Assembly (NCBI RefSeq): GCF_000003815.2
Contig: NC_049979.1
Location: 19,461,686 to 19,525,685, forward strand
DNA length: 64,000 nt
Reading direction: 5' to 3'
DNA from: Branchiostoma floridae
Taxonomy: Eukaryota; Chordata; Leptocardii; Amphioxiformes; Branchiostomatidae
Below, piece by piece: positions 19,501 through 64,000 of the stretch; position 1 is the first letter of the stretch; every line of letters starts with the position of its first letter. The notes below the pieces were generated by a model, which did not search any database, had not been told where the DNA came from, and worked only from the letters and a program-made list of their open reading frames with translations. The position numbers were made by a program, and so were the translations under genes.

Positions 19501-22500
19501 TTCTTGTTGTTGTTTCAACAATATTTCCGCGTAGAAATGTCAACAAGCTTTGATCATGAGATGATCAGTGAACCGCAATAAATGACTTCCTGACATGAAT
19601 GCAACTATAGTTGTTAGCCAAGGTTTTCAAGTTGGCGCTGGATGAACCTTGACCTACTACAGGTTGTCTCTGTGTATCTTTTTTTTTTTTTTTTATTGGT
19701 ATACATATAAGACAAGACACAGTGGTAAATGCACTCTAGCAAAGCTAATTTTAACATTACCACTAGGACATTTGAAAATAAAATAAACAAAGGACAAAAC
19801 AATGTGAGATCAAATAAAAACAGTAGTACAGCAGTGGGGTGACGGATCCAACAAATAAATATATATATACATACAAGATTTAAAGGAAAATGTCAATCAG
19901 TTTGAAAACGGTTGGTCTGGAGTATGTATGTCTGTGTAAGCTGCATGATATGGTTATTTGTTACTGTTGGTAAAGTGGGTGAACCCTTGAGTAAAAGTTG
20001 AGTTAAGACTGGGTCAGACGTAGTTTTCAAATCAAGGGTTAAAAGGTCTTGAAGATTGCAGAGAAGGGTTTTTCTAAGATGGTTGTAGTTTGGGCAGTAC
20101 AATAAATAATGGACAACGCTTTCGCATCGGGAGCCACAGCTACAAGAAGGACTATCGACTAGATTACGTGTGAATAAGCTAAAGTTCAAACTACAGGTCC
20201 CGATGCGGAGGCGTGTTAGTAAAACGCAGGCGTACCTGGGGCCATGTCTAAAATGTGTGTTAGGGGAAGGGCGAACCAATTTTATTAAGTAGTTTTTGAA
20301 TGTTGAAGGATTTAATGACCGAACAGCTAAATCAAGATCATTCCAGTGATATGTAGAATACGGAATAAAGGACCTTTGGTAACGAGTGGTGGTACAAGCC
20401 GGTGACTGTAAGTTGTGTTTGTTGCGAAGGTCGTAGGGAGTAAGGGCAGAAACTTCAGGAGTGATCAACTCCTGAAGGTACTGGCGAGTTTGTCCATGAA
20501 CAATTTTATGAAACATTGTCAATGAGTGAATATAGCGACGGTCAGACAGCTTTTCCCACCCAAGTTCAGAAAGGAGTGACAAATATGAGGATCCTCTCAC
20601 AGCACCTGATACTGTGAGTGAGCACTCATATTGTACTCTTTCTATACGTCGGGAGTCCGATATAGTGCAGCCATGCCATACTATGTCGGCGTATTCAAGA
20701 AGAGGACGAATGAAGGACTTGTAGATAACTTCGAGTACATGTCGTGGCAATTTAAATTTAAGTTTGTTAAGTGTGGACACACGTTTTGATACTTTGGCAA
20801 TCATGTGTGTAATATGTTTTTCCCAAGACATGGTGGACGTGAGAAAAACACCAATGTGCTTGTGGTCTTTTACAGATTGAATGACACAGTTATCAAGAAA
20901 AAGGGGAGGATGGCAAGGGGGATCGATTTTCCTGGAAAAACACATTTCCTCAGTTTTTAAAGGATTCAGTTTCATAAGCCATGTGGAAGCCCAACATGAT
21001 ATCTTACTAAGATCAGAATTTAGACTTGACGCAGTTTCGGTTGGGCTATCCACTATATCTATTAAAGAACTATCATCTGCAAAGAGAAACGGGCAAGATG
21101 ATAAATCGTCCACCATATCATTGATGTAAACAAGAAATAAGAGGGGGCCTAATACAGAACCCTGTGGTACGCCTGCGCGAATATTACACCAATCTGAGTG
21201 CTGGCCATCTATAACTACTCTTTGTACACGATCAGAAAGATAGCTGTGGAACCAATTTAGGACCGGACCCTCGACCCCATTTCTTTGAAGCTTGAAAATG
21301 ATGCCCTTATGCCAAACTTTGTCAAATGCACGTGAAAAATCTAAATAAACCGCTCGGACCTCTCTATTAGAGTCAAGAGCTTCAAGAATTTTGTCAGTTA
21401 CACAAACAAGTTGGCCAACTGTAGAATCTCCACGGATAAATCCAGACTGGAGAGAATATAATAAGTTTTGGGACATCAGGTGGTTGTACAAGTGTTTAAA
21501 TACAATCTTTTCAAGGATTTTAGACAAACAGGGGAGTAGGGATACAGGTCGGTAATTCGACACATCCTCGGGGTCCCCCTTTTTGAAAATTGGTACCACA
21601 TTTGCTCTTTTCCAGGATTCAGGGAAGACTCCGTGATTTAGAGACAAGTTAAAAACATCTGTGTATCTTTCTTTTGTACATTTTATTGACGTCGACTGTG
21701 ATCAGATTAGATGCTATTTTCATGAAGATACCAAAATCTTAAGTCACTGTAACCACTCTGTATCACTTCAAGACTGCTTATGACAAAACAAACATATATT
21801 TAGTGCCACCGCTGTAAAATGCTCGGCTGTTTTCGGAAGGGCATTTTATGATTTATGGGTCAATCATTCCTTTCTTTCTAATGGCCTATAGCTATATTAT
21901 AGATATAGGTCATTCTGCTATAACGTTAGTTCATATTTATCCGTTGGGTAACCTATATGCGTTGCTTTTAAAAACAGGGTGGTTGAGATATTACGTCGAC
22001 AGACGTGGTTTCAGATTGCAATATTTTCAGTATATTGATGTGCCTAAATACCCTGCTTTGGAAAACAACGGATATAGGTTACCCCGCGGATAAAGGGGAA
22101 CTAGCGTTACCATATATTGTCGCTTTCTACTCACAACTTCTTCATCTGTAAAGGAGACTCATCTAATGTCAACATCTCCGACCCTACCTTCGATGGATGC
22201 GGTGCTCATTCGTCATGCGCTGAAAGTGAAACCAAAGGGTTGTACCAGTGTGTCTGTCACCATGGTTACGGTAGTGACGGTTTCTCTTGCCAAGGTTCGT
22301 GAGAAGTATCACTGATATATATACAGTGACTTTAGAGGAAATGTAACTGTTTATGTAACGCGAGGTTTCACAATTTGAACTTGAACACATAGATATCTTA
22401 AGTGTGAATCGAATATTCCTTTGGGGATTACTGATGTTGTATGGATAGATCGCTTTGACTTCCTTTTCTATATAGTGGCTTTATCTTATACTTGCTGAAT

Positions 22501-25500
22501 ATGTCGCAAAGACAGACATTCAAGAAGCAAAACGAGTGAAAAATTCAGTAAAAGCTGATAAAGCCATTTTGATCTTTGAATTAATTTCAATATTTTATCA
22601 TAGAATTGGTAATTTTTGATATTGCTTTGTTCTAAAAGGATCTGTTTAATGCTTTATTTTGTTTTATGTTGCAGATATTGATGAGTGCAGTGACGGTACA
22701 CATGACTGTCATCCTGACGCCGAGTGTCACAACAATGCCGGATCCTTTTCATGCCAATGCAAGCATGGATTCATAGGAAATGGGACATCGTGTTCAGGTA
22801 TATCAAAACTTAATACGTCTTTGCTAGAGTGTCTTGTTGTGCGTTGTACAAAGGTTGACAGATTTGCTGTCTTAAGTTCCATTGATTTAACAGTAGCTTA
22901 AGACCACACTTTGATACAGAACAGAACAGGAGAATTAACAACATCGTCTATTATATAAATCTACAAAGCCACGATTTGCGTTACAGATGTTGACGAATGT
23001 ACAGCAGCAGCGGCTCCTTGCGATCCAAAAGCAAACTGCACAAACACGGAAGGTTTCTTCTTCTGCCTGTGCAACACCGGATACATGGGAAATGGCACGT
23101 CATGTGCAGGTATGGAGCAGTTAATACACATCGATGTTTAGTCCTGTAAATTATGAGGTATTAGTGATGGCGAGATACCTAAAAATATTTACGACAAAGT
23201 CAAGAACAATGAAATATGTTTCAAGTAGCAAGAGTTACTGAGGTTTAGGGAATCTTGATACGTACTTTTCATTTGATGATTGCAGATATTGACGAATGCA
23301 CCACAGAAGCACACAACTGTCACATGAACGCACATTGCACAAACACTGATGGATCTTTCTTCTGCACGTGCAACATCGGATACTCTGGGACTGGAACGCG
23401 GTGCGAAGGTTGGTACAATTATGGAAAACAGAGGACTGTTTTATATTGTATAGACTGGCAATATTTATGCGTTCTGGCGGCAAACTCCCTCTTTATATGT
23501 ACCATGTACCTATTAGTAAATTCTTGCTTTAAGCAAAAATCGCTGTAGCCATTTGATTAATTGTCAGGTGTTATCAAACACATATTTATACGTCTGAGAT
23601 GACAATTTATCAAACCGTTTACAAATTATTATTTTTGCTACTTAGAAACCCTATGTAGTGTCATGTAAATCATATCATTTATTAATTTCATGTAACGTTA
23701 ACATGTACATCCTAAACGACTGGGGGTTCTTGTCACCCTTACACATTATTACAGACATCAATGAATGTGACGAGGATACAGACGGGTGTCATCAAAACGC
23801 TACCTGTACCAACATCCCCGGGTCCTTTTCTTGTGATTGTGACACGGGTTACACTGGAAATGGTAGCGTTTGCACAGGTTAGTCAATACTTTTTTTCACA
23901 AAAAGTTGTTGCATATAAGGACTATTTTGTACTGCCATTTCATAAATCCCAATTGACTCTTCACAAAATTATGGTAATCTTTGTTTGTTTGTTTGTTTGT
24001 AATGTTTTAATCTCACTGGTTTAGCGATATCTGTGTTTCTGCTCTTCATACAGATATGGACGAGTGCACTAAAGGAACTCACAGGTGTGACTCCAATGCA
24101 ACCTGTACCAACACTGCAGGGTTCTACATTTGTGAGTGCATGGATGGGTATGGAGGGAATGGTACTTACTGTGCAGGTAGGTTGGCTTCTGACTCATTCA
24201 CATGATTGTTTACGGAAAATTGCCATAAACGCCATGATGATTCTTAGCAGACAGATCGAGGAGTACTATCTATTGTTATATCCATTCCCTTCTCCCAAAT
24301 CTATAGCGTAGCGCACATATTTATCTTTATGGTTTCGTCGATTTTGTTTTTCACAGATATTGATGAATGTAACGAAGGTTTGGACAACTGTCATTCTAAC
24401 GCAACGTGCAGCAACAATGAAGGATCATACTCATGTGACTGCAAAGTTGGGTATTACGGAGATGGCACCTCTTGTTGGGGTAAGGACATTATAACGTTAC
24501 AGTAACCTACACGATGAATGCATGTGTCCGCAAGATCGAAGTGTTGTCAACATCGTAATAACGTCGTCATAAATATTGTGAGGAAATGATAATATCAGCT
24601 TTCAAAATCAATACCAAAATTTATCTCTTCCCTCATGACCTCAGTGAAAAGTGGCTTGCGCTTTCATGAATAAACAAAGGTTCAAACAAACAACAAACAA
24701 ACAAACCAGTAGATCTATAAAGCTTACGCCCGTACACGTGTAAGGTGATGATTAAGTTCTAAATCGTGCTTGTTGATTTCATACTACAGATATAAACGAA
24801 TGCAGGACAGGAAGTGACTGCGCTGAAAATGCCACATGTACCAACATAGAAGGGTCGTTCTTCTGTCTGTGTAACCATGGATTCACTGGAGACGGTTTGA
24901 TTTGTACAGGTACGTATGACTACAAGATTAGTTGTAACTTATATTCCATGTCCGGCATCTAAAATAAGGTTTATCTATTGTAGCATCTTAGAATTCTTCA
25001 GAGATTTTAGTTTCCAGGGTGCGATGAATGTTTCAAATCATTTATAATTTCAGATATCGATGAATGTGCTGAGGACACAAATATCTGCCACACAAACGCG
25101 ACCTGCAGGAACACTGACGGGTCTCATTCCTGTGTGTGTGATGTCGGATTTGTCGGAAACGGTACAACTTGCACAGGTAAGACACACATTTTAGACCGTA
25201 TGCATTAACTTAAACTTAATAGCAATGATGCGGTATGACAACGTATTATGATGGATGCTAAGAATTTCACATGTATAAGTCTAAAGAAACGACGGAAATT
25301 CTAAGATGTGGCTCTTAGCGTCATCAAATATTACGAATGATTATAAGATGAGTAATTGAATTGTCTTTAAAATAGCGAAATGATTGATATGAAATACCAA
25401 ATTATAATGTATGTTCATATCTTAATTATAATTAAACATTGTTTGCTGAATCAGAAACGGTTTAATTTTGTCATCTCTGGTCTATCTACAATACAGTTTT

Positions 25501-28500
25501 TATGTCTTAATAACAAACATGTTAGATTCTTTTTGTAGATATAATCAACATAATTAGGTGTAAGAACAGTAGTTAAAACTTACGTTCTTGCATATAAAGT
25601 TCCAAAAGTGCTGAAGTCTGAACCTTGCTAACACATCATTTCAGATATTGACGAGTGTAGTGACGGTGTACACATCTGTCATCCTAACGCCACATGTATC
25701 AACACTGTCGGTACTTTCTCATGCGAGTGCAACAACGGATACACAGGAGATGGAACCTCGTGCACAGGTACGTTGATATTGAGTGTGCTGAAATTCTATA
25801 TCTAACTTATCACAACTGTAATCTATTTCTACATTCTGGCATCGTTCGACCTCACGTTGAGTCATAGGTTCACAAATTTTCTTCATTACTATCACAGATG
25901 TAGACGAATGTGTATCGGAGACTGAAAACGACTGCGATCAACACGCACTCTGCAACAATACCGACGGTTCCTTCCTGTGTCGGTGTGATGCCGGATACGC
26001 AGGCAACGGTACATTATGTACAGGTATGTACCCTCTGGTTGATAACTATCTGTTTAAACAAACCTAACGCTTTCACAAACCAGGTCTCCCACCATACCTA
26101 TCAAGTTCAAACTTTAGAAATATGGACAAGATTAAATATTTCAAATCATACGATTCTATTATGATTGTATTTTAAAGACAAGATTTCTGACCAATGAATG
26201 GCGTTATTTCAGACATCGATGAATGTTCCTTGAGTACCCACGACTGTCACCCTAACGCTACATGCACCAACATTGGAGGGTCCTTTACCTGTCAGTGCAA
26301 CAAAGGATACATGGGGAATGGCACATTCTGTACAGGTTAGTAGTACAACATAAGATGTAGGCATTGATAGGAACGATAGTGAGATTGAAAATGGCTTAAC
26401 TTTGCTGCAAACTGATTCTTATTATGTATTAATTGATCCATGTCAAATATGTATCTTATCTAAAATATCTTATAGATAGGATGGGATATCAATATACATA
26501 TTACCTGTATTGCCCAACGATTGAATCAGAAAACGTATTGCAACTTCTATCACGTTCAAAAAACAATTATTCTAGATTCTTTGATGGAATCGAATTTCTC
26601 ATACTAGGACCGTTTCTTTTGTAACTACAATCATAAGTCAATATATAGATAAATTTGATCCTTTTATTCAGTTTGTAAAATTATTGTCTAGAAGTTGACA
26701 TGAGAGTAGAATATGTCATAATATGAAAATGTTAATTGACTTTCAGACGTTGATGAATGCTCCGAGGATTCACAAATCTGCCACCAGAACGCGACGTGCA
26801 CCAATACGGACGGGTCTTTCTCCTGCACCTGTAATCCGGGCTATGTTGGGAACGGCACGGCTTGTACAGGTACAATTCTAATGGTTTTAATACTTTGACT
26901 TGTTTCTCTAAAGCTTCGCAATGTGCATAGATGCGGATGATCTTTTTTATTGCGAATCATAATTTGTATGAATTGTAACAAGGACCGGAATCTTACGTTC
27001 CAATAAGAAAAAATATACACTAAGAGAAAAAGAATCATTGATTGATACAATAAAATTTCGTTGTACAGATATCGATGAATGCGCATCGGGAAGCGAAAAT
27101 GTCTGTGACCAAAACGCAGCTTGCACCAACATTGCCGGGTCATATTTTTGCCGTTGTAACATTGGATATGCAGGGAACGGCACATTTTGTACAGGTACGT
27201 AAAGTTTTACACACATTGGAGACTTGACCAGATCTTATAGATCTGACCAGAGTTTGTAAGAATTACATTCAAGTTGTACAGATTGACTGCGGTATGTGAC
27301 TACAGCTACAAAATGTACTAACTTAAAGAATCTTTTGATTGCGTTGACCGAAGCAGTCGTCGTATTTTGCAGATATTGATGAATGTGAAACGGCAGATAG
27401 AAATAACTGTGATGAAAACGCCACCTGCACCAACACTGACGGATCCTTCTTCTGCACCTGTAGTGAAGGGTTCAGAGGAAACGGTACAACTTGCAAAGGT
27501 ATATCAAGTCCATCATAAATCCCAGAAAATTTCGTTTCGAAATGCAATCTGATGATGAAATTTTCATCAAGACACTTATATTAGTCTGTGACTTATGTAT
27601 ACCATGTCATCGTGTCATTACAGATATCTCATTGACATATTGTCCAAGACAGCGAAGACGAGCCATCATGTGGCCGGAATCAGTCGGAATGACGGTCTGT
27701 CACCGCCCCTGCCCCAGAGGATCTGTTGGTAAGTTAGTGATGTTTATTGCTTTATTGTAGATCCATATACGCATTTTGATACCTGTAACAGTAAGATTAG
27801 TTCCTAGAATTTACCATCAACACAACAGTACATGAATCCTGCTTCATTGTGAATACGTGTTAATTCAGGATGTGGAACGTGTTTACACGTTGAGTATCAT
27901 ACATTCTAGTACCTTGTATACAACAAGCTAGCATTGACATTAGCCTAAGCTTTTATAATCACCCCATATCTCACAGAATCAAACCAACCAAGTTCGTTCT
28001 GTGTTCTGTTATATTAAGGTATCGCTAGCTGGACGTGCGGCAGTAATAGTGCATGGGAGGGAGAACCGGACCTGACCGGATGCCTGTCACATTGGCTACA
28101 CGATCTGGTGAGTGTCAACCATTATTAGATTAAACCTGACATGACTTTAAAGCTCGGAACTATAACTGCACTTGTCAGAGTCACTGTTTTTGCTGACCCG
28201 TAGTATACCAGTGACAAACATAACAAGGAAACACTATCGAGTTATTCTTTTAGCTTATATTTATCCTATCATAGGACTGTAGATTAAATCACATAAAGAC
28301 AAACATTACAATGAACCCATGTACATGTGTCTGTCTTGCAGACCACATGTATATGTCATTTTCAAAAAGAACATCATGGTATGGACTTTTCTATTGATGA
28401 TCCGCTATACAGAATAATGACGTTTGCCAGAACCTCATAGATGTCGATCTGTGCTCAAAAAACAAACAGATGTTGCTACATAATGATGATAATAGACACT

Positions 28501-39532: not shown

Positions 39533-42500
39533 ATGTCGACGGGCAACAAGTTGGTGGCCATCTTGTTTCTACTCCATGTGATGCGTGACCCAGGTGTTAC
39601 TGACGGAGTGGACGGGCAGAGCACAACAACACCGGGTACATCAAGTTATGGTGAGTAAACAAGGGTGTGGATTCACACCTATTATCATAGATAGGTACTT
39701 AACACGTACACAGCTCAATTCTTCTGTTAGGGGTTTCACAAATGCGGTGTCCGTATGTGTGATAGGGTCAATCTACTAATTGTCTCTTCGTCGACTAAAG
39801 GGCAATCAATCAATGAGCTTAAGGTAATCTCGAAGTATTAACAGGTGTGAAATAGTGGCCTCTTTTGAGGTCAAGAAATGTGTACAGTTAAGTTTCGAAA
39901 TTCATGTCGGCAACTATTGCAGAATAATTTCATTGTAAACAAGGACGTGAGTATTTCAAGTAAGAAAATCATTGAATATATAATGTCATATGAAAACTGT
40001 CATAAACAAATTGTACAACTGTTCTATCATTTTTATTGAGGAGACATACATTGCGAATATCTTTGTGAAATCAATTCTATTATTGACTTTCCGTCAAATA
40101 CATGCCGGTAGTGTTTCATCATCTGTCTTGAAAATAACAATAGAGCACTTAAACAATAGAAGATCGCTTGTGGAGTGATGACATAAATTTAGATTCATCG
40201 TTTCACAAGTGGACGCTGAAAGGCGTTCGTGCCTTAGGTTTATTTGAACTGGCACGTTTATTGCTAGCTTTGACATCAATCATTTTTCCTGTCAGGGCTG
40301 ATTATCCCCTCACCCCAGGCCCCGGAAACCTGTTGTCGTTCACTTCTAAAGGGGGTATCTCACTGCACTTGGGACACCGGTGCGGCTCTGCGGGGTTAAA
40401 AAAATTACTCAATGAATTTCAAGTTAAAGAACGAATTTTCTTACGTTTTGTGTATTTGTTGTCTTCTAAGTCATACTTTTACGTATTACGCAATATCTGA
40501 TTTTTTTTAAATCTGTGAAAATAACACAACAGTGTCGCAGTGAACGAACCCCGCAGTGCCGCACCGGTGCCCCAGTGCAGTGAGATACCTTAAGGCATGC
40601 CATCATGTATAAATTAGATACAATATAAGATATGGATTCTTAATTACTAAGACCAGTCTAATAGTTAGCTCAGGAATGTCTTTACCATGGAGACCAGTCA
40701 CCGCAGGTTTCAACGCCAAGGTTATATGTGGGCCCTAGTCTAAAGGACTGCTAGATGAATTGGAGTCAAGTTGTTCTGATAACTTTTTTTATTTTCTCTC
40801 AAGGTCGTTCGAAGAAGATAATCTTCCCCTATCCTCGCAGCATCAGTAACTACGCCAAAATGAATGCCACACTCTCTGAGCAACTGGGCAGTTTTACTCT
40901 CTGTGTGCACATGCGTACAAACGATACTGCCGGCTCTTTAGTCAGTTATGCAACCAGAAGATCCAGCAACGAGGTATTCATTGAAGGATGGAGAGGAAAA
41001 GGCTTCAAGGTACTCAAGGTTTTTTTTTGTCTAGTGCAAGTGATTCCCTATCAGGTCCCTACTAGGGTCAGTGATCTAATCTTCCAGTGGTCGTGACAGA
41101 GAGGACAGATGGTATGTAACGCATCACAGCTTCATTGTACAAAGAGCATTCCTTTAGCTCTTGTCAACAAGTTTATATGTGGATCCTGAGGACTTCGACC
41201 ATATGAAGTGTGCATGTCGACAAAGCCGGAATTGGAACTTCTTGCTATATAGTCAGAGAACATGAAAGTGTTAAGTTCCATTTTATTGCTAAAAGATATC
41301 GTGTACAATGATGTGTCATGTTCCAATTGCAGATACTCGCAGCAGGCGGAGTGAGTGAAGGAAAAACGTTCAGTCTACCAGTTTTGGACGGCTTATGGCA
41401 CGAGATATGTCTAACGTGGCAGGGCCGAGACGGAGCATGGAAGCTATACGTTGATGGTGCTCTCAATAGATCCGACTCGGGGCTTGGCACGCGCAAAGTC
41501 GTATCTACCCCGGGAACGTGGATCCTTGGACAAGATCAAGACAGTCAAGGAGGTGGATTTGACCCTCCACAGGCTTTCAGTGGGGAAATGTCGAGAGTAA
41601 ACCTCTGGGACCGCGTGTTGTCTAGATCTGAAATTGGGACAAACTGGACCACGTTTTGTAGTCACCAAGGCAACATTATCAACTGGACCAACACAGAGAT
41701 TCACGTGTTTGGACAGGCCAGCTTTGCTCAATATGACCATTGCGGTAAGTGTTTTTACAACAATATGATGTGCTCTACTGCACTCAAAATGGACTTACAA
41801 AATAATCACACATTTAGTAAATCAAGGGAACAAAGTTGCAGTACATGTACTCTTGAATTGTGAATAAGAAACGATTGATCGAAACTGTCGCAGTGTTTAT
41901 TAGGGGAGATTCACACAGATGTATCGTAGACAAAACAACCTGCTGTCAAATTGTCCTTGGAATCGTTATGGCCAAGAACAATCAAGAAGCGTTAGTAACG
42001 TCATCGAACATCAGCCATATCGGCTATGGGTGAGGTTAAAATATCTAAGAAACCAGGTCACCAGGTCAAAGAGTCATCGGCTCCCCAACATCCAATGAAT
42101 TCTCTACCAGGCGCATAAGTCAATAGAAATATTTGCCCTTATATAGAGATATATATTTTATTTTAGCAGCAATATAATAATTGAACTTCATGTCTAGCAA
42201 CACTGCCCGTCACGATTTTTGGTGATGCTCCTTATCATGATTTTTATCTGTTGTCCTGACTTAGCATAACGCTGCGCATACATTTTACGGATGATTGCGG
42301 ACAACTGATCTTATCACGCACTACACAGAAATAGACAAACCTTGGTTGCCAATTCTTTATGCGTTCTTCTAAGTTAAAAACAACCCCTTTGTAGTTTCCT
42401 ACAAAGGTTGCATTGTTTGTTGCAATCTTCGCAAAACAAATATACCTTTGTTAGCTTCCTATACGGCTATAGCAGCGTACTGTACACCTCCAAACCATTC

Positions 42501-53470: not shown

Positions 53471-56400
53471 ATGGAAAATTGGGGAAAAGGCCCACGAGAA
53501 GGCATTGAGAGGGAGTTACAGCAGAGGAATGTGACCATGAAGAGGACAAGGTCTGATCAGTTCGCAGCGGTCGTTCTCGCCATTTACGTCGTGTTCACCA
53601 CTGATTTACTTCTAACTGTGACTGTAGTTCACGGACAGGATAGCAACACAGGTAAGAATATTTTTGTTGCTGTAACCTTGACCGTACAATGAATAGGTGC
53701 GCTATCTCTATTTCCAAGTTACTTGTACTCAATCTTGATATGACCATGACCGGCATAGGTGTATGTTTCACAAGCATATACATAACGTTATAGGTTTTAA
53801 AAGGGCAATATTTCTTACTCATAGTTCTCAGATGTTAATGGTGATCGGAACGCTGATAATCATTTGAAATTTTCTCTGGGGCAATCGTATTTTGATCGAT
53901 GATTATAACAAAAAGTTTTGGAAACTTATGCTAAGATTACGTCTAGACAACATATAACGTCTCGATATTACCATGGTATTTTTTTCAGACAATCCTTACC
54001 TTTACATTATTAAATTATATGATATTGATGGTGAAGGCAAAGTTCCTTAGAAAGAATGCTGAAATGCAAATCGTATTGTTGTTTTCAGAATGTAAGTGGT
54101 CACTTTTCGGTGATGAGCAAAACCTGTACCGTCGAACCAGCCAAATCGACTGGGGAAACACGCAGTGGGACATTGTTCCCGTGGAAATCTGCTGGGGAGG
54201 GGGGTGGAGGTGTTCCATCGATTCAGAATGGTTCTTGGAGGACGGACGGTGGAAGAGTCTGTCGTCTCTGGAAACATACAGAAATTCTAAAGACGTCTTC
54301 AGGATATCCTACCAGGATGTGACAAGGGGACGGTGTCGAAGAAAAAGATTTGTCGAGGTGAGAATATCTTTAAGTACATGTATGCTTTCATAACGTCGTA
54401 CAGAAAATAAGTTGTGTCATGTGATGTATCCTAATTTAAGTGAGTTTCTGTTACGTTTACAAATATATGTTGGTGTCATTACAGTACGAAAAACGTCATA
54501 ATAGAAAATACACGCGTAATTCAAACAAGGCAATAATGAAATCTACTTATTGAATCAAACTAAGTATGAATATATTCGATCATCACTCCCACTAGTGTTA
54601 TTCTGATGATAATTGAATATTGCTTCTCTTTGTTCTAGTGGAAAGTCAACACTAGCGATGCTACACTGACTGGACTGGTCATCAAACTGAACATTATCTG
54701 CAATCTTACCTTTAATATCTTTACGCACTCACACACGGACTGCCTGACACTACGGCCAGCAGGGAACGAACTAAGTAAGTGTTCAATATGAATCTCGTAT
54801 AGCTTGCAACAAATACATAGATCTTTAATGATCCATGTACAGAACAACAAAACAGTAAATGCCAAAGGATCACATCCGACAGTCTTAATAATGTCAGAGT
54901 GTGGTGGACGTTTTACTGAAAGGGTTCTGTTCTCTTAGTTTACATTTCAGACGACCTGTTGTTGTAGTTTTGTGTTTACATGTTGTGAAGAATTCCAATA
55001 TACGTAGTTTGCACGAAGTGTTCCTGCATATTTCATGCATTCCCGTTCCTGCTAATGATTTTTACTAAATCTAGGTATGCTGGAGGATTCGGTTGCTTTA
55101 ACACCAGAAAGAGAGCAACTCTAATCATGTTAAAATGTGTTTTGTGTGTTGAATAACGTACATTTCTACAACAGACTCGACCAATGCCACCAGTGTTGAA
55201 AGCAACACCATAGGAGCTGATGACTGTGGGTGGGGGTTCGTGGATGAGAAACAAAGCCTGTACCGTCGGACCACACCCTTGCACTGGGGGGACACAGACT
55301 GGCCGACTACCAACGTGACAAAAATCCAGATCTCCCCAGATTTCTGCGATGCCTGGACATGCTCTGTTCAAGAACAGTTCTTCAGCAGTAACGGACAGTG
55401 GCGGGCGCTATCGTTTCTCGGACAGGAGGGTGTATCGGACGATATTTTTCACTTGTTTTACAAGGATAAACGCCACCTAGGGAACTGTAGCAGACAATGG
55501 TTCGTTCAGGTGAGTAGCAGTTACTAAGAACTAAAGGAATGGGTGAGAACACATGTACATGTCAGAAAATCTTTGTCTGATGAAAAGTCATTCTTAGACG
55601 TGTATTAGAACATATCCCATACTTAACAACAATGTATAAACTTTTAAGTTTTCGTGCATAAAAGGTGATAAACCATCGGTTACTTTGATATAACAAAAAG
55701 ACACTACAACGCACTAACGTGAAAAGTCCAACAAGAAGACACTGTAACACACTAACAGGAAAAGTCCAACAAGAAGACACTACAACACACTAACATGAAG
55801 AGTCTAGCAAGAACACACTACAACACACTAGCATGGAAAGTCCATCAAAAAGACACTACAACACACTAACATGAAAAGTCTAACAAGAAGAAACAGGTAC
55901 AATATATTGACAGCATCCAGTTAGTCCTCGATTTGATAAAATAAGAGCATACTTCATATCTTTAACGTTGCTTTGGTATAGATACTCTGTGAATCAACAA
56001 AGATGTTGTTTGTCTAGTGTAGTAATGATGGTACATTTCTGTTTTATTTAGTGGCATTACACTGAATACATCGCCCAGTTACGGCCCCTGTTATTCCAAC
56101 TCGGAATCACCTGCAGCTCAACAGGAAAACACACGGAGACAGAGTGCATCACATTTGAGACTGGCGATGCTCGCAATGGTAGGGATGTCTTCGTTACAAT
56201 TTTGTTTTCCATATATGATTTGTCTAACTTGTTTAAAAAAGCGTAACTATCATTATTGGGTCCATTTATTTGCAGCTGTTTCAAGTGTGAAGCTAAACGT
56301 AAGTGTTGCAGTGCCAGCGGTGTTGTTTTAATGGAAATAAACAATTCATACACCTGTATAGATAGTATAGGACTCAATGCAAGCCCTCATAATCCCCAGT

Positions 56401-59400
56401 CAATGTTGTTTGGTATTCATAGTTGGTCGTTATGTGTCATTATGTGTCAAATATGGGTCCGCTCCGTGCAAGTCACTGGATAGCTTCAGGGGCAACCGGT
56501 GATAATTACTGAAAATATGTGACCTTTCCACTACGGCGGTGCTATCGTCGCGCGCTCTCTGCGACAGATATCTCGACGAATTTTTACTTTGAAGATTGAA
56601 TTTTTTACGCGTTGTGTTTTTTGCTGTCTTTTAAGTCACACGTTTTCATTTTGTATGATATACCCAGTGTAAAATCAAATTTCCAAACATTCGTAGAGCG
56701 TAGCGCGATCGCCGTCTAGCTAGTGGGAAAAGGAAAAAGTTAGAAAAGGAGGACCAAGTCAAGTGTGAACCATTGTCAATGCTGGATGTAATCTTATGGT
56801 TCTATAATTCTGAATCCTAAGCTCACAGTCCGAGCTGTGCATATAATGGTGGTCGTACTTTGTGTAGTTTCACGCCGAGTTAAATGATAGCTATAGTCTT
56901 CATTCTTGCGTACATGTAAGCGCCTCGCCTGTGATATTAAAGGGCTATATCGTGCCCTTAAGCCAAGGTGCGTCATACAGAGGCAAACAACAATACGTGT
57001 CTAAACTCGCTTGAGTGAAGGTTTGGGAAGCCAAATCTCACATAATCAAACTAATGGGACAGTTAGAGACGCCATTGAATTCTGAAATTGTTGCATACCA
57101 AATTAGTTAGAATAACTTGAAAGAATGATGTCACACAGTGGACTTTGCCTCCATGATTGATAGGTGAAGTCACCAGTCTACAAAAGGCACAATGCGCATG
57201 GCTACACAATTACACCTGGCAGCACAATGTACATGGCAGACAGGAGGCAAATCTATTATCAATGACATCGGGTCTAGTACGTGGCAAGGTTCATGTCGAA
57301 AGCAAAAACAATGCGATAAAAACTGGCAGTTCTGTGCTTTTAAAACTCATCGCTTGCAGTAAAATCACAGCCTCTGCTAGGAGAACCTTGTCTCTACACA
57401 ACAGCTAGGATGAGTGACCTTGCAACGATAACTGAAGTGACATTTTCAGTGATTATCGCCGGATACCCCTGAAGCTGCCCAGTGGCACACACAGAGCGGA
57501 CCCAAAGTGTGACACGTAATTATAATGGTGAAATGCTAATGTCCAACAACAATCATTATGGCCATGACTGGGAGACCTCAAGGAATGCATCGAGTCGTCT
57601 ACTAATTCTAAACAGTTTCTTTCGAATTCTATTCTACATGTTTAAAGTCCATACCCGCTACAGTTATGTTCAGGCTTACACAGTAAGTGAACAGAAATAT
57701 TAGGTAAACGCCCAAATTGCAACTGGCATGGTACCAATAACATGAGTATGATAGGGTTCAATAACCACATATGATGACAGCAGACAAAACATACCTAAAA
57801 CCACATTTGATATATTGCAACGTCATAAATGGAAAATGATAATTTTCCGTCACAAGGCCATGTTTTAAAATCCTCAGTGACTGTAACGTATACGTATGAT
57901 TTTTGTTTTTACAGTGCCTGACCCTTCAACAACAAGGTCCACTTTAAGCAGCAGAACTAGTGAGTCATCTCAGTGTTTTTATCACTGCTTGTACACTGTT
58001 ACTATTTCGCGAGCTTTTGCAAAATATACACCTATCTATGATTATGTTTACGTTCTGATTACATTGTATTGGCCAGTAACAAATCAGTGTGAAAGTGTAT
58101 AAAAACATATACCCAAATATGGTAATCACATTTTACCTTTTGACAGGTCCCGCTGCCTCCACAACGTCAACACCTGCAACGTCCACGTTGATGAACAGTA
58201 AGCCGGGTTTAGAACTCATTCTAACACATTTTTGTCAATTCACATCCTTTTTACCTCTCTTTCAAACTGTGGCTACAAGCAGTGTAAATTTTCTTCTGTC
58301 ATCACAGATCCATCTACAACTACAAGAAGGTCAAGTAAGTTTTGTAATATTTTCAACATCATGAAAGGTTTTTTCTCTGACATTTTAGGCACTTGTCACA
58401 CAGCAGGTTGTTGCCTGCCATACAATCAGGATGCTTTTGATAATGAGTTTTCTTTTGTGTTGGAAAATTACCCCTGTGAAGGCCCGATGCAACAGTTTGC
58501 TCATTTGCCTATTGTAGTCTGTTACTTATTTTGATTTGCACCTACTTTGGCGCAAACTTTTTATCGACTAAATATATGCATAAACAAAACGATGATTGAT
58601 TTCTAAAAAAAGACTTCTCTAAAGTTGTCTACATAAATTATGGTTATGACAACTTTCCTATCCTTGAGTATTGCGATACATCGTTTCTTATTTTCCTTGG
58701 TATAGGTACTACAGCTACTACCACCATGGCCTCAACATCTATTAGACCATCAACCACACCAACAAGGTCCACAGTGGGGGCTAGTAAGTTCTTTTAATCA
58801 TAAAGGCCACATGTAATTTTCTGGACAATGTTACTCATTGCCAACACTGACTAACCGATCTCTCAATAAAACAGGTCCGTCCACTACCACAGCCTCAACA
58901 ACAGCAAGAATATCAACAATGGGCAGCAGTAAGTAAATTTTTCGAGTCTTTTAAAGTCAACATTTATGATATGTGTTGTAACTTTTTCTCTTCTGTCGTG
59001 ACACCACCGTCAACAGTTAGTTTTGTAAAGTATCTTCATAAATTTTCATTGGCTCCTCAACTCTTTTGTGTTTTTATCATACTTATTAATATCTATTAGT
59101 TATTGATACACGTACACTAAAATTTGGACAACATGGGCTACTTTACTGTTAACTGTATAAGTTTCTTCTCTTATTAGGTACGTCGACTGCCACGCCTTCA
59201 ACAACCACAAGACCGAGTACAGTACACATCAGTAAGTCTTTTCAAGTCCTAGCTATAATGCTGAAAGCATTGTCCTTTACTTGATATGACCTTTTTTATA
59301 CATATACTTCAAGCTAACGACTGAAAACCCTACTAGGGGTGCACATGTCCTAACCAGGTCATAGAAAACATTTCTTGGGTCTTTTATATTAGCTACCTTG

Positions 59401-62400
59401 TTAGAAGGCTGTAAAAGAACAAGAATATTTCATAGGGAATGATGAGTGGTGTAAGCTACATTTATTTCAGTCATTCTTGTAACTTTTATGTTTACGTTAC
59501 CGCAGGTCCTTCCACAACCCCTGCACCAACCACAACACGGCACGCAGGTTCTGACATTTTCATCACGTTAACTTGTTTTAAACATAACGTTATGTTTTAA
59601 AATTTGAACTCCTCTATGATACAGTACAATAATTCTATTCTCAATAATAGGTTTACTATATAAATCATATCACATCTGAAAGGCTTTCTCTAACTAAAAG
59701 CCAACTCTCTTGCAGCTGCAAGTACATCATCATCATCAGGTACAACGCACAGTTACATCTCTTCAAAACCAACGGCATCCCCTACGCCACTCCCCACCTC
59801 CACACAAATCACCACCCGCACAACCTTAGCTCCAAGCACAAGTATCGCGAGTAAGTTATACATCTGTATGTTTAAATGTTTCATACAAAGGACAAGGCTT
59901 TACGAATACATAGCCTGGTAACTACACTTTATTTAGTAATCACATCAAGATGAGATAATTTGATGGAGAAGTCGTAAGTATCTCTATCAATCAGATCTCA
60001 TTGGGAATATTAGAGAGAACAAGCCTTGATCTTTTATGGCTAACGCATGTTCTTTTACCTTGCCTTCCAATTAGGGACGGAAATACCAGTTAAATATTGT
60101 CCAGAATTCGAACCGACAATCGAATTAAAGAGGCTCGGAGTCTTCGTCTGGCCGAAAACAATACAAGGAATGGTGTCCTATCAACCATGTCCCAATGGCA
60201 CCGTTGGTAATAAGCTACACAACATTTGCATTGGGTGTGCTATATGGGCGACTATTTGTTCCTCTTCTTATCACCTATGTGTCTGTCAACACCATCCATA
60301 AAGATACAGATACAGCAAAGCACATGTGCTACAAATAATCAGAATCTAAACACCTCTTTCTCCTCTCAAAGCAAAATTCCAGACTTGTTAAAAATCTTTT
60401 TACTTCCATCTAGCTGCCATAATTTCCATGTTGCCCTTTTCAAGGGGATTACATTTGATGATACATTTCTGACTCCTCTTGTGTCTGGTACCCTTGTTAC
60501 GTGACTGTCCAAACAATTTTAGATAGGTCTTCTCACAACCACACAATGTTGGCTCGTCCTTTGAGGTATTTCACATGGTTTTAGTTCCAATATGTTCCAT
60601 TTCCTTTTGGGGTGCCAACCATCAATCATACGAATTACTACGATGCCCACGCTCGCCGATATAAAAATGATATTAAACTTTGACATTCCATGCAAACTCA
60701 AGTAACTCCATGCAAACTCGACAAGTAAGTCTACATTTCAAATCAGTTGCAGTAAATACGCCAACATAGCAAGAAAAAATACTAGATTAGATGTGTGTTC
60801 TGATTTTATCATAATTCATGACTTCGTTATCACCTAACGTACGTATTGTGTCATTTTCTAGGTCAGATACAACTGATATGTGGAGAAGACGGTACTTGGC
60901 AGGGGTCGCCTGATCTCTCCAATTGTACCACACACTGGATTCAGGAGCTCCAACTGTCTGTAAGTACAAGTACCAATATTCTGTAAGACGTATTGATGCA
61001 TGTTTTGTTAACTGTTATAACTAGATATGATATTCGGATTCTCCTTCCGATATTATATACAATATCATAACTTGGCAAGCTTTTTATTTGAAGGAAATTA
61101 AAGTTAATCAAAGGGTGATTGACAAAAATTAAAGAATTTTCATTACGACAGGCTTGCTCTGCAATATAACGTTACGTTGACTCTATGTGTTTTGATTGTC
61201 AACATTCAGTCTTGCACTGAAACACAAAGTCGTTTACGTGGAAAGAACTCAATTCTATCATAACATTTTTCAGCTCGCTCGAAGGGTTGACCCAGAGGAC
61301 GTCCTCCTCGAGATGACTGACGGACTAGTTTCAGAAAAACCCGTTGAGGCATTTGACATCATCAAGATCATTAACATAATCGGCGTCATCCTGGAAAGAC
61401 AGGAAGACGAGATGCAGTTCAGTAACGTAACACAAGGGGGCCAAGAACACATGAGAGAATCTCTTATAGAGTTTGCTAAGGTTTGTGTATTGCCAGTGCT
61501 AACTACTTACTGCTTTTTAAAGTGGCACTTCCATAATTTATCTTTGGCTGTGACTGGTCAGTTATACAGCCTCACCATTTATTGCTAGTTTTAAACGTTT
61601 GGCATATATAGTCTTTGCAATATTTAGTAAATAAACATTGGAAAAGTTTGCTGTGGAAAGAGTTCAATTTTGTTACCAATTATATTCTTTGCCAATAAAG
61701 AGGATAATGCCAATATCTTCTCACATTGCCGAAAAGACAAGAAAGTATATTCATTTAGCTTATTTTTACTACAGAGGATTATAAAGTCTTCAAGTTCTTT
61801 GCTAAAGAACGCACTTAACAAGGACTGGATGAGCATTGAGCCTTTGGTAAGTTGCGATTTCTTGCTATGACCATGCTATCATCATTTGGTATTTCTTTAG
61901 CCATATTTATCAATATAGATATTTGCATGTGGATATAATGCAGTTATATCAGAGAAATCTTTGCTTTTCCTTTTTTGTTTCATCGTCTATTATCGTTTAC
62001 GATGGCTCTTTCAGGATCGCAGAATTGAGGCGGCCGCAGCACTATTGGCTAAGGTAGAGAAGCTGGGTATCCTTTTGGCCTCGAAGTTGCCCAATAATAC
62101 CATCTCAATCATCGACGAAAACATAGGTACGTGTCTAGTCTGTCTGCAAGACTAATCCAGTAATCGTATGGTTCTAAACCGAACATTCCACCTGCCATGT
62201 ATTAACTATCCTCTCATACTAGGCCCACCGCTCGGGTATATCAAGCCGTGAGCTAAGCGTTCCTGCCTGTACATGTGACCTGTTCCCATTGCTTGTAGTT
62301 GGAAGGAAAGTTTTCAGCCGATTATCTCTCCATTTGAGATCAAGAGACAACGTAATTGGCTGTTATCTCTCCTTTCAACATCAGAAGGGGTAATATTTGA

Positions 62401-64000
62401 TTGGCTGGCGGCTATTCAGCTGGCTCAGCGAGAATGACGTACCGGCGTCGTTGCTTGAGATAATCTAACACAAATGGCGGACCTGACATTATAGGATGTG
62501 TATAAACATCGTGTAGATATAACCAATGACTCAATGTATCCTGATGACGACTTCTGTTCTCTCTTAGTGTTTGCAGTCGGTGTTATATTCAAGAAAGACC
62601 CCACCTTCCCTGATCCAACGAAGTTACTCAATACGTCTTGGAGCGGTGTCACAGACAGTATCACCCTGCCCCAGACTGACCACCATGCCGTGGCGACCCT
62701 GTACAAAACCATACACTTGTACCTAAACTCCAGTTCCAACCAGGTGAAAAGTGTCAACTCCCGCGTCATCGCGACAACCCTCGTGAACGGGACCATCCAA
62801 GATGGCGACAGAATCACCATCTTCCTGGAACATGACAAGGTATGGTACACCATTTCTAAAGATGGTTTAATGGCACCATAACTGAACCTGAAAACTTGTA
62901 TCAAGAACACCAGGAAAGTAACATAGAAATAACAACTCTTTGACGTAATATGTTTATCTCAAGTTCCCGTACAACAAACAGTAGATGCCTTTCCGATGAA
63001 TTCCTCGGCGTAGTCTTCAATTTTCTTACAATATGCATACAAATGTTCTCCCAAACCACATCAAGTGCTACAGTTGCATTGCGAAGAATATCACTTTCAA
63101 AATGTTATCTATGTTTTCATGCAAGTTGATTAATGACACGTATCCTTACAAATACAACCCTCTATACTACATTTCTTTCACAGAATCTAAACCAATTGAG
63201 GAACGCTACAGTAAATGTTACTTCGTCCTGCTCCTACTGGAACTTTCCCAGCCAGTGAGTACTCGATGATTTTATACATTAGGTATGTGTAGTAGGGCTG
63301 GGTATCGGTACAGCGTACCGGTACAAAACCGGGTTTTTCTTATTGGACCGGTCCAGAAAAACCGGACCGAAAAAAATAGGTGGACCGGATGTTGGACCGA
63401 TTAGAAAATTAACGTATCATTTTATCAGGTATTCACACGTTTTGGCGCTTGCAGTTGGAAGAAAATGACAAGAGGGAAGTAGAGTAGAGTTTATAGTAAT
63501 TTCTACCAAGGTTTACAGTCAATCGCACAGGTGCAGTTAGCGTTGTAGTGTTTTAAAACGCCAGTGTAAGTCTAATACCCCACCAAACAGATTTCTTGGT
63601 AGTGAAATGGACCATTGGTATGAGTCATACTGAATCAGGTCCAGGTTCAGGTCCGGACCTGGACCTGATCCTTTGGACCTGAACCGGACCTGGACCTGAA
63701 TTTTCTGTACCGGTACCCAGCCCTAATGTGTAGTATAATGCGAGATACGTCCAATAATATCTCGGTGACCAAAATGTGCAGGCAAATTATTCTCCCTATG
63801 GGCCATATAGCCAGTGCGCATGTACATGTAGTAATTCTGCTAAAGACTAGTTCTTGGCGTAAAATGCGAACCATATAGCAAGTCTACATTGCAGTACCAC
63901 TAGACACTTTTTCTAAGAATGATGTTTACCTCTCTTTAACCCAGGGATTGGGCAAATGGCAGTTGTACCGCGAAGGAGATTAACATGACCCACACCACCT
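53471..64000 (+). CDS. Adhesion GPCR with duplicated Trp-rich six-Cys domain, mini-exon stalk, HRM and GAIN; truncated by the window end
   Basis: Twenty-one exons are visible, about 850 residues: signal/anchor about 1-57, domain copy 1 about 61-195, copy 2 about 196-349, Ser/Thr stalk 350-511, HRM 512-588, GAIN 589-809, then the start of the GPS. The first exon (53471-53651) is open from ATG 53471; the later ATG at 53528 in the same frame gives MKRTRSDQFAAVVLAIYVVF, a more typical signal peptide, so the true start may be there. Exon 1 ends in phase 1. The 7TM part must lie downstream of 64000. The ectodomain type is new to me; the HRM-GAIN chassis assigns it to the same family as genes 1-4. 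Confidence 0.88.
54089..54774 (+). other. Gene 5: unrecognised Trp-rich six-Cys domain, copy 1
   Basis: Two exons, 54089-54357 and 54639-54774, joined in phase 0 after a conserved F-V-E|W. Landmarks: ECKWSLFGDEQNLYRRTSQ, IDWGNTQWDIVPVEICWGG, W-R-C-S-I, EWFLEDGRWKSLSSL, DVFRISYQD, RCRRKRFVEW, then a second half with two further cysteines (NIICN, TDCLTL). Six cysteines in total. No match to a known extracellular family comes to mind. Confidence 0.8.
55175..56178 (+). other. Gene 5: unrecognised Trp-rich six-Cys domain, copy 2
   Basis: Exons 55175-55509 and 56052-56178, split at the same place as copy 1 (WFVQ|W, phase 0), after a short Asn/Ser/Thr linker (NSTNATSVESN). Landmarks: DCGWGFVDEKQSLYRRTTPL, HWGDTDWP, FCDAWTCSV, FFSSNGQWRALSFL, DDIFHLFYKD, NCSRQWFVQW, then GITCSS and TECITF. 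Cysteine number (six) and order match copy 1, although the second cysteine sits at a shifted distance. The two copies are clearly homologous but diverged. Confidence 0.8.
55692..55893. repeat. 38-bp minisatellite, about five copies, intronic
   Basis: Unit close to AACAAGAAGACACTACAACA then CACTAACATGAAAAGTCC, in the intron that splits domain copy 2 of gene 5. Copies differ by a few substitutions. Confidence 0.88.
56439..57520. mobile_element. Element bounded by 78-bp inverted repeats, gene 5 intron
   Basis: 56439-56516 and 57442-57520 are inverted copies: TTCAGGGGCAACCGGTGATA at the left, TATCGCCGGATACCCCTGAA at the right, and GGGTCCGCTC/GAGCGGACCC further out. The interior of about 900 bp is non-coding and contains a separate TIR element (56523-56733). 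The outer ends are near ATTATGTGTCA. Probably a non-autonomous DNA transposon carrying a nested insertion; no firm target duplication. Confidence 0.65.
56523..56733. mobile_element. TIR miniature element, CCCCTTTCCACTAG family, copy 2
   Basis: CCTTTCCACTACGGCGGTGC at the left and CGCCGTCTAGCTAGTGGGAA plus AAGG at the right are imperfect inverses and match the ends of the element at 14731-14962. Both copies contain a GCGCGCTCTCTGCGAC-like or GCGCTGCGCTCTC-like segment next to the end. Confidence 0.65.
57915..59850 (+). other. Gene 5: Ser/Thr stalk built of eight mini-exons
   Basis: Exons 57915-57959, 58147-58197, 58308-58334, 58706-58783, 58875-58928, 59178-59231, 59506-59547 and 59716-59850, lengths 45, 51, 27, 78, 54, 54, 42 and 135 nt, all phase 1-1. 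Several end in A| and begin GT-C-C, so the junction codon is Ser (A|GT). Peptides repeat P-S-T-T-x-R-S/P motifs (DPSTTRST, NPSTTTRRS, SPSTTTAST, TPSTTTRPST). This is a mucin-like spacer, expected to be O-glycosylated, and any exon can be skipped in frame. The smallest exons are individually less certain. Confidence 0.72.
60075..60959 (+). other. Gene 5: HRM domain
   Basis: Exons 60075-60206 and 60862-60959. The first encodes YCPEFEPTIELKRLGVFVWP, then KTIQG and YQPCPNGTVG; the second encodes LICGEDGTWQGSPDLSNC. Compared with gene 4 (105 nt) the first exon is 27 nt longer, with extra residues before the W-P motif. Confidence 0.88.
61274..63254 (+). other. Gene 5: GAIN domain and first GPS exon
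   Basis: Exons 61274-61480, 61775-61846, 62015-62126, 62568-62839 and 63184-63254. Subdomain A: LEMTDGLVSEKPVEAFDIIK, NKDWMSIEPL, LAKVEKLGILLASKLPNNTI. Subdomain B: TFPDPTKLLN, VNSRVIATTLVNGT, ITIFLEHDK. The last exon opens the GPS with SSCSYWNFPS. Subdomain A is the most diverged of the four copies: the Y-G-G-D motif is absent (E-A-F-D instead). Confidence 0.87.
63293..63725 (-). mobile_element. hAT-type MITE, copy 2 (433 bp)
   Basis: Reverse orientation relative to 676-1096; roughly nine in ten aligned bases agree by eye. It begins TAGGGCTGGGTATCGGTAC and ends GTACCGGTACCCAGCCCTA. A perfect 8-bp target duplication ATGTGTAG lies at 63285-63292 and 63726-63733. It sits in the intron between the two GPS exons of gene 5. 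Confidence 0.92.
63945..64000 (+). CDS. Gene 5: second GPS exon, cut by the window end
   Basis: After the acceptor CCAG at 63941-63944 the frame reads DWANGSCTAKEINMTHTT, matching the W...G/S-C...T-H-T segment of the GPS exon of genes 2-4. The Cys-x-Cys-x-H-L-T cleavage motif would follow directly beyond 64000. Confidence 0.85.

Follow-up and report, generated by a model that had tools for sequence, protein, structure and literature searches.

Tandem copies of a previously unnamed Trp-rich, six-cysteine module on an adhesion GPCR of Branchiostoma floridae, with related copies in neighbouring receptor genes

An adhesion GPCR gene with two module units

The window analysed here is a stretch of 64,000 nt of the Branchiostoma floridae genome (C1:19461686-19525685; genome total 513 Mb). 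Its plus strand carries an adhesion GPCR gene, labelled R5, which was modelled from the genomic sequence alone with hand-chosen splice sites. The model comprises 30 exons in a single open frame, runs from 53537 to window-equivalent position 67402 and encodes 1140 residues to the last exon modelled, in the order signal peptide, two module units (D1 and D2), mucin-like stalk, hormone receptor domain (HRM), GAIN-type region, GPS and 7TM. Exon 1 (53537-53651) encodes the hydrophobic N-terminus of the signal peptide and ends in a phase 1 donor; it starts with the ATG at 53537, and a further in-frame ATG lies upstream at 53471. D1 is encoded by exon a at 54089-54357 (phase 1 in, 0 out) and exon b at 54639-54774 (phase 0 in, 1 out), and D2, with the same phases, by exon a at 55175-55509, which includes a short N-terminal linker, and exon b at 56052-56178. 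A putative small exon at 56276-56298 was excluded from the model, as by eye it breaks the frame.

The Ser/Thr/Pro-rich, mucin-like stalk (57915-59850) consists of eight small phase 1-1 exons (57915-57959, 58147-58197, 58308-58334, 58706-58783, 58875-58928, 59178-59231, 59506-59547 and 59716-59850) and is followed by the HRM (60075-60959; exons 60075-60206 and 60862-60959; PF02793, E = 2e-7). The GAIN-type region (61274-62839; exons 61274-61480, 61775-61846, 62015-62126 and 62568-62839) was placed by its position before the GPS; its roughly 240 residues between HRM and GPS have tblastn matches in five other receptor genes of the neighbourhood (R1-R4 and R6) and no Pfam match of their own in the spliced protein. 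The GPS motif (63184-64000; PF01825, E = 1.1e-10) occupies exons 63184-63254 and 63945-64056, the second of which crosses the window end, and the motif sequence is present at the expected cleavage site. The 7TM exons lie beyond the window, at window-equivalent 64223 to 67174 (PF00002, 7tm_2, E = 4e-66). All of these exons are on the plus strand, and R5 has two features of an adhesion GPCR, a secretin-type 7TM (PF00002) and a GPS before TM1 (PF01825).

A sequence-only reading of this DNA had described two homologous units at 54089-56178, and that description holds: the coordinates are exact, the borders are GT-AG, the phases are 1-0 and 0-1 in each unit, every motif claimed as common occurs in both, and D1 and D2 have the six cysteines each that were claimed for them, alongside eight tryptophans in D1 and seven in D2. 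The local alignment of D1 with D2 has 44 of 135 positions identical (33%, E = 3e-25) and scores 222, whereas 2000 shuffles average 31 and peak at 57. Since synonymous sites are near saturation (dS about 2.5, dN 0.65), the duplication of D1 and D2 is old, which agrees with the earlier proposal of a duplicated two-exon module, here a class 1-1 cassette, that is not recent. The assignment of the units to an adhesion GPCR is likewise supported by one frame over 30 exons into the 7TM and by the HRM, GPS and 7tm_2 matches. The observation of a Trp-rich six-cysteine module, previously unnamed, on an adhesion GPCR is confirmed.

Eight module copies in one receptor cluster

Eight copies of the module were detected (D1, D2, E, F, A, B, C and G), all within 166 kb at C1:19.427-19.593 Mb. 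A profile search over a 250-kb stretch returned eight matches to exon a (E <= 6.2e-19) and eight to exon b (E <= 1.2e-16), training copies included; the next best matches in the 250 kb were at 0.042 for exon a and 0.013 for exon b, none of them below E 0.01. When each copy was left out of its own profile it scored 99 (D1), 136 (D2), 119 (E), 147 (F), 177 (B), 156 (C), 64 (A) and 42 (G) bits, the divergent copy G reaching 42.1 bits where the best of 1000 shuffles reached 12.2. The profile was confined to the 250-kb stretch and the genome elsewhere was covered by single-copy queries, so that more divergent copies could remain elsewhere. These queries were D2 (E up to 1), B (10), G (10) and A (5), and each recovered part of the copies; the only match outside the C1 cluster was on C2, at E = 0.53 with the D2 query, and G recovered itself, then B and C at 0.76 and 2.3, and nothing else. 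Single places on C2 (E = 0.53), C3 (0.65) and C11 (1.0) were dropped as module copies, and so was a weak match at 19614287 that is kelch-like by eye.

The phase 0 intron noticed earlier at a matching point of both units lies at the same alignment site in all eight copies, together with a phase 1 entry; for copy A, one of two candidate acceptors six bases apart was chosen. A clear phase 1 exit is present in six of the eight (the exceptions being E and F). As a two-exon, phase 1-1 cassette, the module is a domain competent for exon shuffling. D1 is closest to E (41%) and D2 to F (53%). Because the module tree contains no starred branch, we claim no order of duplication; in it D1 and E are paired at 88/92, which is only fair, and the pairing of D2 with F is open.

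Within the module there are six cysteines in D1, D2, E and F, seven in B and C, and five in A and G. Genes A, B and G have one additional cysteine just after the module, which brings their totals to even numbers. The second and fourth cysteines are both missing from A and G, and this joint loss predicts a disulphide between them; the disulphides of the module as a whole are likewise predicted. All six module pairs compared show more synonymous than amino-acid-changing change, for example B and C (dN 0.12, dS 0.26, with one junction codon wrong in this count) and D2 and F (pN 0.28, pS 0.61), an excess that fits genes under constraint.

Six adhesion GPCRs, R1 to R6, lie in the 250-kb stretch, and five module copies are assigned to three of them. 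Besides D1 and D2 in R5, we infer from strand, from order and from no single TM exon being seen between them that copy C belongs to R1, and E with F to R6. Copies E and F stand in tandem upstream of R6 with Ser/Thr-rich frames between, the same arrangement as that of D1 and D2, and copy C lies upstream of the window, of TSP1 exons and of R1. R2, R3 and R4 had no module match in the 250-kb profile search.

The cluster holds other ectodomain pieces as well. Six of the eight tried match C-type lectin, pentraxin, SUEL lectin, EGF, TSP1 or F5/8 type C domains; of the remaining two, one was without a Pfam match and one fell under the WSC cut-off. Within the window, R2 has C-type lectin exons upstream of it (6413-7081; PF00059, 2.4e-11 for the two exons linked by an X), R3 an extended run of EGF-type frames recognised by eye (21818-27549; one frame tested, EGF_3, 7.6e-14), and R4 a pentraxin domain (41312-41860; PF00354, 1.1e-23). 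Similar GC-rich stretches containing ACCGG-type repeats, perhaps a dispersed repeat, were seen by eye near two neighbouring receptor genes (window about 669-1125 and 63283-63720). Elsewhere in the genome, many 7tm_2 exon matches at C10:4.88-8.68 Mb and 16.52-16.56 Mb apparently mark other large clusters of adhesion or secretin-type receptors.

The remaining copies belong to three single-pass genes, A, B and G, of 635, 550 and 565 residues, which are without internal stops and have largely matching intron phases. They were spliced by hand: in A an acceptor 11 bases further on replaced a first choice that gave six internal stops, and the small exons of B and G were sought as bridges between intron phases. 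In each gene the signal peptide is followed by a Cys-rich stretch, after which come the module, a stalk and a single TM helix whose end is basic; a long tail rich in Tyr completes the protein. The module is therefore not peculiar to GPCRs. The Cys-rich exon of B matches Sha_B_N (PF23328) at E = 1.4e-9, above the cut-off, and that of G comes just under it (E = 7.7e-5, 23.3 bits versus a cut-off of 24.4); no Pfam match to Sha_B_N was obtained for gene A, nor, to E 1, for the R5 protein. The N-terminal exon is thus, by these matches, probably of Shavenoid type in B and in G. A genome search with Sha_B_N gave six places to E 10, among which the exons of G and A were absent and only B and C1:19361830 were above the cut-off. 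The latter place (C1:19361830-19362042, minus strand) has no module match nearby in the single-copy genome searches.

The tails of these genes share a tyrosine motif. Among the six-frame ORFs of the 250 kb there are 12 instances of the pattern [VI][DE]Nx[IV]Y (200 shuffles gave 0.72 on average and at most 4), and all 12 fall in exons read as receptor tails: one in A, one in B, two in G, two in R1 and three apiece in a pair of minus-strand genes (at 19556k and 19570k), both of which have a TM-type frame close by. These two single-pass-type genes span C1:19556169-19572861; a frame adjoining the second matches SUEL lectin (6.6e-22), and an F5/8 type C domain (7.5e-15) lies upstream of the first. 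A search of the whole 513 Mb with a DNA pattern for the longer V[DE]NxIYEG, which intron-split copies would escape, gave seven matches, every one in a tail exon of the cluster; the reversed pattern, used as a control, gave none. Two of the seven lie in an exon at 1217-1381 of the window (plus strand), assigned as the last exon of R1, which starts with IWLDDFTDT and continues with VENTIYEG, VDNVIYEG and a stop; its start resembles the frames after the 7TM of R2 and R3. With the motif occurring twice before the stop of this exon, an adhesion GPCR seems to share a tail element with single-pass receptors. Other tyrosine motifs are found in the single-pass tails: A and B have NPxY just inside the membrane, and A, B and G have many YxxL by eye, without, in those inspected, the residue at -2 of the canonical ITIM [SIVL]xYxx[ILV]; the B tail includes YTSL-x7-YQDL, by eye an ITAM-like spacing.

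Comparison of the module with known families and folds

The sequence-only reading had found no named domain to match the units, and this holds across the family. Pfam returned nothing to E 10 for five single copies; for the eight rows of alignment A1 the one match was VASt, at E = 0.052 in a single member, with no curated cut-off reached. Of the checks proposed in that reading, the Pfam search gave no convincing known family, and a profile search, here over 250 kb of the genome, gave eight copies. These results support the suggestion that the units may be a new family of receptor-type ectodomains, and extend it beyond GPCRs to the three single-pass genes; D1 and D2 as members of a new sequence family of receptor ectodomains are supported on these comparisons.

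Searches of the PDB bear on the fold. By sequence, D1 and G found nothing to E 10, and the best values for D2 and B were 0.53 and 1.5. By profile, alignment A1 gave DPP9 at E = 0.16 and odorant-binding protein at 0.63-0.68, and alignment A3 gave one DPP9 sequence at E = 0.0022 over profile positions 12-102. With the same A3 profile the other nine of the ten DPP8/9 sequences listed were at E 0.31-0.83, and odorant-binding protein was at 0.75-0.94. We rejected the identification of the module as a DPP8/9 beta-propeller blade on this spread, one sequence in ten at 0.0022 and the rest at 0.31-0.83, and that as a lipocalin because bovine odorant-binding protein reached only E 0.63-0.94. The DPP9 profile match is not accepted as homology, yet it is the strongest lead to the fold of the module. 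An AlphaFold model of the D1 and D2 exon-a fragments only had a mean pLDDT of 39, was mostly strand and was too poor for use.

It is possible, though we would sooner expect otherwise, that the module is a highly diverged known beta fold, such as a lipocalin-like or beta-propeller-blade-like meander, in which case only the sequence family would be new. The DPP9 match over profile 12-102, the similarity to bovine odorant-binding protein (E 0.6-0.9) over about 60 residues and the mostly strand content of the poor fold model would suit such an origin. Weighing the other way are the much weaker values of the other nine DPP8/9 sequences and the lack, to E 10, of any lipocalin or propeller match in Pfam for all eight copies; six conserved cysteines are also not known as a feature of either group.

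Proposed role of the module and meaning of the cluster

We consider it reasonably probable that the module is an extracellular, disulphide-bonded unit of two receptor classes in one cluster, serving as a ligand-binding head that acts through the GAIN domain and tethered agonist or through a tyrosine tail. The receptor anatomy in the gene models, the homology of the copies, their detected number, their restriction to the cluster and the tail motifs are observed; we infer from them that the module binds a ligand, activates the receptor by way of GAIN and acts on signalling by the tail. A ligand-binding head seems most likely because each receptor carries the module at its far end or close to it, past the stalk, in a cluster with lectin-type and other ectodomain pieces. 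The first class would be the adhesion GPCRs R1 (copy C, then TSP1 repeats), R5 (D1 and D2) and R6 (E and F), and the second the single-pass A, B and G, in which the module would follow the Cys-rich N-terminal exon and precede stalk, TM helix and tyrosine tail. Release of the tethered agonist via GAIN and GPS is established for the adhesion GPCR class. In R5, the D1-D2 pair would be held off the membrane by the mucin-like stalk, and binding to it or a pull on it would be passed through stalk and HRM to GAIN/GPS, exposing the tethered agonist and activating the 7TM. For the single-pass genes A, B and G, a head of this kind may instead control phosphotyrosine or PTB-type signalling by the tail.

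Three other accounts of the module and its genes were weighed against a ligand-binding head shared by two receptor classes. That the D1 and D2 exons form a separate gene, joined to the receptor by proximity only, is very improbable; the splice sites were indeed picked by hand from genomic DNA, but the frame is open and the phases are compatible from signal peptide to 7TM, and the same layout is seen with E and F ahead of R6. The module may also be a structural spacer or protective cap, with no ligand-binding head. Its place distal to a long mucin stalk suits a passive role too, and yet the conserved Trp and Cys, the sequence constraint, the use in two receptor classes and the lectin-type neighbours speak for more than that, which makes a spacer or cap improbable. 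Less easily set aside, and still rather unlikely in our view, is a Shavenoid origin: the module would be the usual second ectodomain of Shavenoid-type proteins throughout animals, from which lancelet adhesion GPCRs borrowed it, and would be new only to GPCRs. In B and G the module exon lies directly 3' of the exon matching Sha_B_N, as this would predict; against it, the Sha_B_N place at C1:19361830 is without a module nearby in genome searches with E limits of 1, 10, 10 and 5.

The favoured reading, a ligand-binding head on two receptor classes, can be taken a step further, and here we are distinctly tentative. The cluster may be a lineage-specific recognition locus in which heads and tails have been exchanged between seven-pass and single-pass receptors, with R1 coupling one ligand to G-protein and phosphotyrosine/PTB outputs. 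Such exchange would give adhesion GPCRs and Shavenoid-type single-pass receptors a Trp-rich head in common, and would put the same tyrosine motif in R1, in the single-pass receptors with that head and in two other single-pass genes, one of which lies by a SUEL-lectin frame. If this were true, R1 would combine tethered-agonist G-protein signalling with a phosphotyrosine/PTB tail, and the locus would resemble paired receptors across receptor classes. Adhesion GPCRs sense their surroundings by ectodomains that they have borrowed, and for many of these receptors no ligand has been identified. A single head type with different outputs (GAIN/7TM, tyrosine tail, perhaps both in R1) would amount to a natural experiment and make ligand and output separable, and the arrangement suggests one gene cluster mixing and matching sensor heads and signalling tails.

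Integrin beta tails have NPxY and NxxY motifs, and the tails of A and B show the same order, NPxY and then N-x-x-Y; this is a resemblance of motifs only, and no integrin domain is among the Pfam matches of A, B and G. B (over the cut-off) and G (just under it) resemble proteins with the Shavenoid isoform B N-terminal domain (PF23328) in having a matching domain, which in them adjoins the module; R5 is without a Sha_B_N match. Shavenoid, after which the domain is named, is a gene that one paper, in the part available, calls specific to insects and arthropods (PMC9375228), and here the domain is placed in a chordate; titles and abstract beginnings of the literature searched contained no chordate Shavenoid case.

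The available part of a 2008 survey (Nordstrom et al. 2008, PMC2246102) reports that amphioxus adhesion GPCRs have many N-terminal domains new to the class, e.g., Somatomedin B, Kringle, C-type lectin and SRCR. Its receptor class matches that of R5, and so, probably, does its kind of animal, but its domain search used Pfam models and that part of the text names no module like D1/D2; a module without a Pfam model could not have been found by such a survey. Likewise, titles and abstract beginnings in the literature on amphioxus adhesion-GPCR ectodomains and tyrosine-motif receptors, a scope that excluded supplements and most subscription journals, mentioned no such module. Tyrosine signalling motifs are also reported, in the part of the paper available, for a phosphotyrosine-dependent inhibitory LRR receptor of amphioxus (PMC8211107). 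That receptor has LRRs, whereas the genes described here have NPxY, V[DE]NxIY and YxxL motifs, with one tail exon assigned to an adhesion GPCR. Adhesion GPCRs with unusual ectodomains are already known; R5 adds to them an unnamed module, which it shares with single-pass Shavenoid-type genes in a cluster with a tail motif of its own.
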